A DNA stretch of 64,000 bases from Natrinema halophilum (GTDB lineage Archaea; Halobacteriota; Halobacteria; Halobacteriales; Natrialbaceae), in NCBI RefSeq assembly GCF_013402815.2, contig NZ_CP058601.1, positions 2,542,001 through 2,606,000 of the forward strand. Reading direction: 5' to 3'. The position numbers were made by a program, and so were the translations under genes. Every line of letters starts with the position of its first letter. Within the stretch, counting starts at the first letter, position 1. The notes beneath the pieces are model-generated. The model did not search any database. It worked only from the letters and a program-made list of their open reading frames with translations, and was not told the origin of the DNA. This document shows positions 54,681 to 57,700 of this stretch, one piece after another.

Positions 54681-56939
54681 ATGGCAATAGATGACCGCCT
54701 CCCAGATCGACTCAGAGAAACGTATAGCGTAAAAATAGGAGTCCTGTTCGTGGTGGTCGCCGTGACGACGCTTCTCGTTGCTGCGCTCTTTTTCGGCTAC
54801 GTCTCCAGTACCGTCGGCCCGGCGGCGGAAGCCCACTTCAGCGATCAGACCGACGACCGAAGTGACGTCGCTGCGGCCTGGTTGACGACGAACGCGGAAA
54901 CGGCAACCGGACTCGCCACTGACGGGACTCTCCAGGACGGAAGCACCGCAGAGGTAGAAGAGCGGCTCGCGGCCGTACAATCCGCTCGGTCAGATCGGAT
55001 CGCAGCGATCCACTATCTCGACGGTGACGGGACCGTTCTCGCGAGCAGCGATGACGGGGCAACCGAACAGGAGTTCTTCGAAGCAGCCGGCATCGAAGGC
55101 ACAACAGATGGACCGGGCCCTGTCCATCAGGGGCTCTCGACCGACGACTCGGTCTTGTCGTTCGTTACAGGCGTCGAGCGCGGGGACGGCAGCCAACGGT
55201 ACGTGGTCGTCTCCGTTCCCATCGACGGGTTCACGACAGCGCTACAAACTGACGAATCCAGTCGGACGGTCGTCACAAACGCCGACAGCGAATCGATCGC
55301 CGCGGTCGGCGAAGAAGCACCCGTCGGCGACGAAGCTGTTCTAGCTGCAACCTCTCCGGACTCGGACAGCGTCGCTACGGGCGTCCCCGATGGGACCGAC
55401 ACGGAATACGCGGCGACGGCGGCGACGATCGACGTCGGCGACAGTTCGCTGACGGTCTCGACCTACGATACCGCGTCGACCGTATACGGTCCACAAAAGG
55501 CTGCTTCATCGGCGTTAGTTGCCTTGCTGTTGATCTTCACCCTTCATCTCGGGCTCGTCGGGATCGTCCTCGGGGGCAACATGTCCCTGAACCTCCGTCG
55601 GCTCGCGAGCAAGGCCGAGCGGATGGGCGAGGGCGACCTTACGGTCGAACTCGAGACCGACCGGATCGACGAGGTCGGAATCCTGTACAATTCGTTCGCC
55701 TCGATGCGGGACTCGCTCAGACAGACGCTCGACGACCTCGAAGAGCAGCGCCAGCGCGCCCGCGACGCCCAGCAACGAACCGAACAGCGAAATCGCGAAC
55801 TCGTCGCCGAAGCCGAACGGTACAGCGAGGTCATGTCCGCGTGTGCCGACGGCGACCTCGAGCGCCGACTCGAACCCGAAACCGACCACGATGCATTGGT
55901 GTCGATCGCCACCGCGTTCAACGAGATGATCGACGACCTCGAGGACGCCGTCACGAAGGTCAAGGCGATTTCGGCCGACGTCGCCCGCACGAGCACCGAA
56001 GTCCAGACCAGTTCCGACGAAATTCGGCGGGCGAGTGCGGAAGTCACCACGTCGATCCAGGAGATCTCGAACGGATCAGCAAAGCAGGCGGACGACCTGG
56101 CCGTTGCGACGACGGAGGTCAAGGAAATGTCCGCGACCGTCGAGGAGGTCGCGGCGGCAACGAGTAACATCGCCGACCAGTCGAGTCAGGTCGACGAACT
56201 GGCCACGGACGGCCGGCGGGCGGCCGAGGAGACGAGGACGGAAATGCACACCGCCAGCGAACAGACGGAATCCGTCGCCGAGACGATCCGAGCGCTCGAC
56301 GAGGAGGCAGATCAGATCCAGGAAATCGTCGAGTTAATCGACGAAATCGCCGGCCAGACCAACATGCTCGCGTTGAACGCGGCCATCGAATCCTCCCGAT
56401 CCCAGAGTGCCTCCAACGAAAGCGGCGGCTTCCAGGCCGTCGCCGACGAGGTCAAAGAACTCGCAAACCAAACTCAAGAGGCGGTCGGAGACGTCGAAAC
56501 CATGATCGAATCGATACAACGGCGGGCGACGAAAAGCGCAGCGCAAATCGAGGAAACCGAGACGATGATCGGGTCGGCAACCGACGGGGTCGACGACCTC
56601 TCGCGAAAACTCGACCGGATCGCAGCGGAAATCGAACAGGTAGCCGCCGGCGTCGAAGAGATCGACCAGGCGACCGACGAGCAAGCCGAATCCGCGGAGG
56701 AACTCGCGACGATCGTCCAGGACGTCGCGAGCGTCGCCGACGAGACGACATCGCAAGCCCAGCAGGTCGCCGCGGCCGCCGAGGAGACGACGGCGACGAT
56801 CAGCGACGTCTCGACCGAAGCGACGCGACTCGACGAACGGGCGACGGTGCTCGCCGATGCCGTCGACGAGTTTACCGTCTCGGCGCCGCCGGCCGATCCG
56901 TCTGCTACTGCACCGGTATGGGACGGTGATTCGCAATGA
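54681..56939 (+). CDS. htr: Halobacterial-type transducer (methyl-accepting) paired with an opsin homologue
   Basis: 752 residues. TM1 lies at about 18-42, and an outside domain of about 230 residues follows (43-272; two alpha-beta parts, DRIAAIHYLDGDGTVLASSD and QRYVVVSVPIDGFTTAL, like a Cache fold). TM2 is at 274-298, HAMP domains near 299-352 and about 385-435, and a long coiled-coil signalling rod extends to residue 735. The hairpin tip IDEIAGQTNMLALNAAIES is conserved, but the next turn (SRSQSASNESGGFQ) is about three residues longer than usual. The layout equals HtrII. The stop codon overlaps the opsin gene start (ATGA at 56936-56939), so the two proteins are made together. It should drive CheA/CheW and the flagellar motor. 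Confidence 0.9.
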   Translation: MAIDDRLPDRLRETYSVKIGVLFVVVAVTTLLVAALFFGYVSSTVGPAAEAHFSDQTDDRSDVAAAWLTTNAETATGLATDGTLQDGSTAEVEERLAAVQSARSDRIAAIHYLDGDGTVLASSDDGATEQEFFEAAGIEGTTDGPGPVHQGLSTDDSVLSFVTGVERGDGSQRYVVVSVPIDGFTTALQTDESSRTVVTNADSESIAAVGEEAPVGDEAVLAATSPDSDSVATGVPDGTDTEYAATAATIDVGDSSLTVSTYDTASTVYGPQKAASSALVALLLIFTLHLGLVGIVLGGNMSLNLRRLASKAERMGEGDLTVELETDRIDEVGILYNSFASMRDSLRQTLDDLEEQRQRARDAQQRTEQRNRELVAEAERYSEVMSACADGDLERRLEPETDHDALVSIATAFNEMIDDLEDAVTKVKAISADVARTSTEVQTSSDEIRRASAEVTTSIQEISNGSAKQADDLAVATTEVKEMSATVEEVAAATSNIADQSSQVDELATDGRRAAEETRTEMHTASEQTESVAETIRALDEEADQIQEIVELIDEIAGQTNMLALNAAIESSRSQSASNESGGFQAVADEVKELANQTQEAVGDVETMIESIQRRATKSAAQIEETETMIGSATDGVDDLSRKLDRIAAEIEQVAAGVEEIDQATDEQAESAEELATIVQDVASVADETTSQAQQVAAAAEETTATISDVSTEATRLDERATVLADAVDEFTVSAPPADPSATAPVWDGDSQ

Positions 56940-57700
56940 TACCCGCGGAGACGCTCTATCGGATCATGTTCTACGTGATGGCAGCGGCGACCGGACTCTT
57001 CCTGTTGTGGGTCGCCCAGTTTCCCGAGGGCAAGCGCCGGTACTATCTCCCGGTTCCGATCATATGCGGAATACTCTCGCTGGCGTACTTCGGAATGTCG
57101 ACACAGCAGTTTTTCGTGACGACTCCGACCGGGCAACCGGTTCAGGTGAGCCGGTACATCGAATACTTCACCGTGGGACCGATGATGGTGACCATCACGG
57201 GTATGGTCGCCGGTGCATCGCGCAAACAGCTGATCACACTCAATGCCCTCCAGATCTCCTGGACGAGTGCCACGGTCGCCGGATACTTCCTGACGGAACC
57301 AACCGTCTACGTCGCTAACATCGCGAATTTCGTTCTCCTGGGTCTGTTGGCTTACTGGCTGATCTGGCCGATCACACGGCAATCTGGCAATCAAAGTGGC
57401 GAGCGCGTCCTGCTCTATGGCAAACTGCGGAACCTGCTGTTGTTGCTCTTCGGAGCCTACCTCGTCGTCGGCCTCCTGTCGCGGCAGGGCTTCGGGCTAC
57501 TCAACGCCTTCAGCGGGATCTTCGTCGGGAGTTATATCGACGCACTCACTCGAATCGGGTTCGGCGTGCTGGTACTCCGGGCGACCGGCGCAACCGGCCA
57601 ACTCATCGAGGAGTTGGAGTCCGGGGACATGGGCGACGACGGGTCGGACGGCGTCACCCTCGAGTCATCCGAAGAATCGTCGGTCGAACTGGCTGACTGA
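56936..57700 (+). CDS. Sensory-rhodopsin-like protein lacking the retinal-binding lysine
   Basis: 254 residues, seven helices, clearly a microbial opsin close to sensory rhodopsin II: RRYYLPV after helix A, RYIEYFTVGP in helix C, TLNA in helix D, LRNLLLLLFGAY in helix F, and SYIDALTRIGFG in helix G. In SRII helix G reads YLDLVTKVGFG; here the Schiff-base Lys is Arg (R206, codon CGA at 57551-57553), so no covalent retinal bond can form in the usual way. The counter-ion Asp of helix C is Glu (E76). Pocket Trp residues are Tyr (Y77), Phe (F172) and Gly (G179). Helix G Tyr, Asp and Thr (Y200, D202, T205) and helix F Tyr (Y175) are kept. It likely works with the overlapping transducer as a non-photic sensor part. 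Confidence 0.85.
   Translation: MIPAETLYRIMFYVMAAATGLFLLWVAQFPEGKRRYYLPVPIICGILSLAYFGMSTQQFFVTTPTGQPVQVSRYIEYFTVGPMMVTITGMVAGASRKQLITLNALQISWTSATVAGYFLTEPTVYVANIANFVLLGLLAYWLIWPITRQSGNQSGERVLLYGKLRNLLLLLFGAYLVVGLLSRQGFGLLNAFSGIFVGSYIDALTRIGFGVLVLRATGATGQLIEELESGDMGDDGSDGVTLESSEESSVELAD

Follow-up and report, generated by a model that had tools for sequence, protein, structure and literature searches.

A lysine-less, sensory rhodopsin II-derived protein and its HtrII-like transducer in Natrinema halophilum and related haloarchaea: a candidate retinal-free input to taxis

What might an opsin sense once the lysine that binds retinal is gone and the transducer gene beside it is kept? This question is raised by a gene pair of Natrinema halophilum that lies in the window, by which we mean the whole 64,000-nucleotide stretch of contig NZ_CP058601.1 that was analyzed. 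The features of the pair are as follows.

54681..56939, + strand: HtrII-like methyl-accepting transducer gene, 752 aa (ORF; Pfam HAMP and MCPsignal; PDB; 23 of 23 orthologous operons)
56936..57700, + strand: opsin-related protein (ORP) gene, 254 aa, derived from sensory rhodopsin II (SRII), without the Schiff-base lysine (ORF, Pfam, PDB, tree)
56936..56939, + strand: ATGA stop/start overlap between the transducer gene and the ORP gene (the same in all 23 orthologous operons)
57161..57163, + strand: Glu76 codon, at the counterion position, which is Asp75 in SRII (always Asp or Glu, 23 of 23)
57458..57460, + strand: Tyr175 codon, equivalent to SRII Tyr174, the relay partner of Thr204 (23 of 23)
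57551..57553, + strand: Arg206 codon, CGA, at the SRII Lys205 Schiff-base position (alignment, codon check)

Clade comparisons below use SRII numbering, in which Arg206, Glu76, and Tyr175 of this ORP are residues 205, 75, and 174.

Haloarchaeal opsins of this kind are known. Becker et al. (2016) described 48 lysine-less opsins and named them opsin-related proteins (PMC4915679). In their group A, the Schiff-base site holds Arg and 15 of 16 genes stand beside a gene for a HAMP/MCP transducer; in group B, the site holds Leu or another hydrophobic residue and 17 of 32 have such a neighbor (PMC4915679). Transcription was detected for eight of the nine ORPs tested, and a role in non-light taxis was proposed (PMC4915679). 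The core of the finding is therefore already known, and the preliminary description of this locus erred in calling a transducer-coupled lysine-less opsin undescribed. The literature searched yielded no subsequent study of what haloarchaeal ORPs do. What is new here is the proposed pairing of the Arg with an acidic residue, a relay that is intact, a partner with a double Cache domain, and the distribution among genomes apparently lacking retinal synthesis.

An intact gene pair under purifying selection

The ORP scores 69.8 bits against Pfam Bac_rhodopsin (cut-off, 24.6), and its best PDB relatives are chains of N. pharaonis SRII (NpSRII), in an alignment that spans seven helices. An NCBIfam search assigned it to no family, and a scan of viral contigs found no relatives. 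Among 125 genomes of the same family (Natrialbaceae), 22 further genomes carry close copies (E < 1e-79; alignment identity, 52 to 83%), beyond which identity falls sharply to 39% or less. The resulting 23 orthologues come from three genera, namely, Natrinema, Haloterrigena, and one more, and their carriers include Natrinema salsiterrestre, N. gelatinilyticum, N. ejinorense, and Haloterrigena salina.

This genome search, which the preliminary description had called for, recovered the same operon throughout: the Arg, the 4-bp ATGA junction, and the adjoining transducer are found in 23 of 23, as is the gene order leuS-transducer-ORP-DUF2071-OCD (ornithine-cyclodeaminase family). The 4-bp overlap and the replacement of the Schiff-base Lys by Arg that were given in that description are confirmed. 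A read error at the Arg codon was considered and is ruled out, because the Arg of the 23 orthologues is encoded by three different codons (CGG in 15, CGA in 6, and CGC in 2) and all of them share the overlap and have stop-free frames. A chance ORF and a pseudogene were rejected as well. Among Natrinema genomes without the ORP, 11 of 14 (L206 to L216) have a clean junction with leuS directly before the DUF2071 gene and both operon genes missing, indicating that transducer and ORP come and go together.

The suggested test for purifying selection gave dN/dS ratios (NG86) well below 1 for both genes; the median is 0.31 in the ORP gene and 0.275 in the transducer gene, and values are mostly ~0.2 to 0.4. 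For bacteriorhodopsin (BR), in the seven genomes that also carry it, the ratio is mostly 0.09 to 0.14 at dS near 0.7. The ORP ratio is about twice that of BR, which indicates purifying selection that is looser than on the pump. Since about one-fifth of alignment columns are invariant, the invariance of the Arg is by itself modest evidence. That the pair is a decaying former phototaxis receptor, functionless and under relaxed selection, would fit the dN/dS above that of BR and the fact that some Natrinema have lost the operon or never had it. However, 23 intact, stop-free copies persist in three genera at these dN/dS ratios, the Arg, Y199, Y174, and the overlap are invariant, and no Lys-bearing relative was found within the clade of 23 orthologues. 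The decay reading is thus largely refuted and seems to us extremely improbable, and the operon is very likely functional.

Two minor observations concern the same genomes. Among five Natrinema genomes, dS is 0.10 to 0.32 for BR (BR genes L194 to L199 and L202, from seven genomes), 0.44 to 0.83 for the ORP (one near-identical pair excepted), and 0.48 to 0.68 for the transducer; the low BR values relative to those of the operon suggest that BR genes were recently exchanged within Natrinema. A fragment at G012:C1:485371-485628 matches no more than the second half of the ORP, at 40% identity, and is a possible remnant.

A rebuilt retinal pocket and a retained relay

The pair resembles the SRII-HtrII systems of Natronomonas pharaonis and Halobacterium salinarum in gene pairing, in its seven-helix fold as judged by sequence, in transducer-contact and relay residues, and in the similarity of TM1, TM2, and HAMP to those of N. 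pharaonis HtrII (NpHtrII). It differs from SRII in the loss of the Schiff-base Lys and in an altered retinal pocket, and photoactivity is not expected. All of the pocket substitutions named in the preliminary description (D75E, W76Y, W171F, P175L, and W178G) were confirmed. W76Y, V108W, P175L, and W178G each occur in 23 of 23 orthologues, and position 171 varies within the clade (W in 15, F in 8). The pocket residues by themselves suggest that ORPs of this clade would not bind retinal.

Signaling in SRII starts at retinal and travels, by way of the hydrogen bond between Y174 and T204 and of Y199, to Asn74 in TM2 of HtrII (PMC3274258). The ORP keeps Y174, Y199, D201, and T204, as had been claimed, so that the residues coupling SRII to its transducer are present in a protein that lacks the lysine. 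Across the clade, Y199 and Y174 are found in 23 of 23 orthologues and T204 in 20 of 23; an acid (Asp or Glu) occupies position 75 in all 23, and R72 and D201 are also kept. An AlphaFold model of the ORP, built with five input sequences, has a pLDDT of 46 and is usable for helix order and the B-C hairpin only, and neither the salt bridge discussed below nor the pocket was therefore read from it.

A distinct branch among the opsin-related proteins

All 23 orthologues lack the lysine, having Arg instead, and they fall on the ORP side of the opsin tree: in a quick tree of 94 rows, in which long branches are present, a branch with SH-aLRT support of 100 divides all 74 non-Lys opsins from the 20 Lys opsins. 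For comparison, we recovered group B sequences as well as sequences (L153 and L154 among them) that match the group A signature exactly. The present clade (support, 99) is separate from the group A type (support, 100), and the types with a hydrophobic residue or His also lie apart from it. A joint Arg clade of the present clade and group A, and with it a single K-to-R origin of the two, is not rejected (AU test, P = 0.33).

In its residues, the clade combines features of the two published groups. It shares with group A the Arg at position 205, an adjoining HAMP/MCP transducer, Y199, and an acid at 75/76. Group A-type sequences differ, however, in having W76D (S or G in four), Y174L, mostly A or S in place of W178, and M or Q at position 108, in having lost R72 and Y51, and in transducer frames of ~510 to 540 aa that have no Cache domain outside. 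In the present clade, R72 and Y174 are retained and the transducer has a double Cache domain, and the group A signature (W76D, Y174L, W178A, M108) is replaced by Y76, Y174, G178, and W108 in 23 of 23. With group B, it shares R72, mostly Y51, an aromatic residue at 76, mostly Gly at 178, Y199 and D201, and, where a transducer adjoins, an HtrII-like TM2-HAMP region. Group B differs in having Leu, Phe, or Val at position 205, where the present clade has Arg in 23 of 23, in lacking the acid at 75/76, in having mostly lost Y174 and T204, and in transducers that are mostly short. The clade therefore reads as a residue mosaic, with the Arg of group A and the R72, aromatic 76, and G178 of group B, and it retains Y174 and T204, unlike groups A and B. 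It is a distinct and well-preserved ORP branch, and it looks the least altered among ORPs. Its Haloterrigena members may already be included in the 2016 tree, since Fig. 2B of that paper lists Haloterrigena (PMC4915679).

Other ORPs recovered here include a Halorubrum-type group A gene (G347:C1:2929385-2930178) that is split into two abutting frames and is probably a broken copy. Five ORPs (L062, L063, L068, L070, and L076) have His at the Schiff-base position, with Asp75 kept in three; they may bridge the Arg type and the hydrophobic type.

Carriers that apparently do not make retinal

The N. halophilum genome encodes BR and halorhodopsin (HR), both with the lysine, and has a nearby gene of the Brp/Blh type (255 bits); six other carriers likewise have BR/HR and Brp/Blh. 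In the remaining 16 of the 23 carriers, whose genomes are near complete, a profile search detected neither Brp/Blh nor any other opsin; as a positive control, 19 genomes of the genus, including that of N. halophilum, gave a match to the same Brp/Blh profile. Of these 16 ORP-only carriers, eight are Natrinema, six are of the Haloterrigena type, and two are others. The operon is thus maintained in genomes that apparently do not support retinal synthesis, and Becker et al. made a similar observation for ORPs of eight species (PMC4915679). Carriers without Brp/Blh may take up retinal from neighbors. In one carrier (G060), a canonical lysine opsin (L200:3955-4839, - strand) adjoins its own transducer (525-aa frame) in addition to the ORP, showing that both types can coexist.

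These data bear on whether the ORP is still a photoreceptor that binds retinal or another carotenoid noncovalently, or uses another chromophore. The seven carriers with BR/HR and Brp/Blh are compatible with such a role, as is the retention of D75/E75, D201, R72, and, in 15 of 23, W171. Against it stand the 16 carriers without Brp/Blh or any lysine opsin, the replacement of W76, P175, and W178 in 23 of 23 together with a Trp at position 108, and the absence of a retinal band in two other ORPs that were purified (PMC4915679). We consider a photoreceptor very unlikely, and on its residues, the ORP very likely does not sense light by the usual route. The earlier suggestion that coupling was kept and light capture dropped in favor of a non-photic input is accordingly supported by the fixed Arg, the rebuilt pocket, the kept relay and contact residues, purifying selection, and the 16 carriers without Brp/Blh or any other opsin.

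Proposed pairing of the arginine with an acidic residue

An acid at position 75/76 accompanies Arg at position 205 in 52 of 52 sequences and Lys in 56 of 57, compared with three of five for His and 0 of 31 for hydrophobic residues or Thr. The association of the acid with Arg205 (phi = 0.93) is the best among all columns tested; other columns reach phi values of up to 0.89 from clade structure alone, and on the tree, the Arg-acid link involves only one or two independent changes, too few events for a formal pair test. The conserved buried charges are balanced in the present clade (R72 and R205 with D75 and D201), as in Lys opsins, and also in group B (R72 with D201).

The dark form of SRII is held by a salt bridge that links the protonated Schiff base to the Asp of helix C. 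Disruption of this bridge in H. salinarum SRII (HsSRII) leads to constitutive signaling, as stated in the title of Spudich 1997 (cited in PMC5292967). It is moderately likely that the Arg guanidinium, at the site of the former protonated Schiff base, pairs with Asp/Glu75, which would create a permanent version of the dark-state interhelical salt bridge between helices C and G. Because the relay residues and the counterion of SRII-HtrII are kept, the biophysics of that complex is directly applicable, and single substitutions can test the dark-state copy.

The transducer and its outside domain

The best PDB match of the transducer is NpHtrII, over TM1 and TM2-HAMP. Its parts are as follows.

54723..54815, + strand: TM1, aa 15 to 45 (aligns with the NpHtrII N terminus LPSRVRHSYTGKMG; helix in the model)
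54816..55490, + strand: predicted extracellular double Cache (dCache_1-like) sensor domain, aa 46 to 270 (AF2, Foldseek, VIA, sub-cut-off Pfam)
55491..55580, + strand: TM2, LHLGLVGIVLGG, matching NpHtrII INLGLVAATLGG (alignment)
55578..55724, + strand: HAMP domain, aa 300 to 348 (Pfam PF00672, 59.5 bits)
56199..56735, + strand: MCP signaling domain, aa 507 to 685 (Pfam PF00015, 112 bits)

The TM2 site corresponding to Asn74 of NpHtrII is His here and Asn in the Haloterrigena-type orthologues. In the AF2 model, aa 46 to 270 form a block with pLDDT mostly above 80, in which a long helix is followed by two Cache-like folds. This block matches the sensor domains of KinD, DctB, PctA, CtaA, and Tlp3 (Foldseek E values down to 5.5e-8; VIA Z scores of 15.4 to 17.2 over ~210 residues at a root mean square deviation [rmsd] of 2.8), and the Pfam dCache_1 match is 25.9 bits, under the gathering cut-off of 45. 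By its modeled fold, the large outside domain to which the preliminary description had pointed is thus of the double Cache sensor type, and it may act as a sensor together with the opsin.

Like the dCache_1 chemoreceptors PctA, CtaA, and Tlp3, the transducer joins a double Cache domain to HAMP and MCP signaling parts, and to our knowledge those receptors have neither an opsin partner nor an HtrII-like TM2. Their ligands are not transferable to the domain described here, given identities of 7 to 15%. Transducers of group A and most of group B have frames of ~500 to 600 aa in which no match to the domain was detected, and those of some relatives with Thr or His at position 205 give weaker matches.

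A candidate two-input receptor for taxis

The presence of a Cache domain and an ORP in one complex provides two candidate inputs, for which there is precedent: H. salinarum HtrII doubles as a serine chemoreceptor, combining rhodopsin input with serine sensing (PMC3274258). We propose, with a probability of roughly 60%, that the retinal-free, SRII-derived ORP and the HtrII-like chemoreceptor signal jointly to the CheA/CheY taxis system. At roughly even odds, the pair would be a two-input receptor: the Cache domain would bind a small solute outside the cell, and the ORP would report or tune membrane state, through either a small hydrophobic ligand in the remodeled pocket or the effect of pH or voltage on the Arg-acid pair, with the signal passing from helices F and G to TM2. 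A more specific version is put forward tentatively, as possible rather than probable: a third ORP lineage in which Arg and Asp/Glu permanently mimic the protonated Schiff base with its counterion. The former photoreceptor switch would have become a salt bridge, either fixed or sensitive to ligand, pH, or voltage, that feeds through the unchanged SRII relay into a double Cache chemoreceptor as a retinal-free two-input sensor.

The ORP might instead have no signal of its own and be a structural subunit that sets the stability or basal set-point of the transducer, with the double Cache domain doing all of the sensing. The complete chemoreceptor layout of the transducer, with its Cache ligand domain, is consistent with this, as are the faster evolution of the ORP than of BR and an Arg-acid pair that would mimic a fixed dark state. 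However, ORPs are kept in clades A and B beside transducers that are mostly of 500 to 600 aa and give no detectable match to the outside domain described here, making the ORP the likelier input, at least there. Y174 and T204, moreover, are kept together mainly in the present clade and are needed for signal transfer, less obviously for support. We therefore find a purely structural role rather doubtful and favor joint signaling by the ORP and the transducer. The Natrinema and Haloterrigena genomes that have the operon as their sole opsin offer clean strains for the question of the stimulus. If a non-light input is confirmed, the microbial rhodopsin fold would be a general receptor module, as is the animal opsin fold among GPCRs.

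The output of the joint receptor would likely be taxis. The N. halophilum genome has CheW-domain genes, one of them in a 1,255-aa frame that is probably CheA, and six MCP genes that score above the cut-off.
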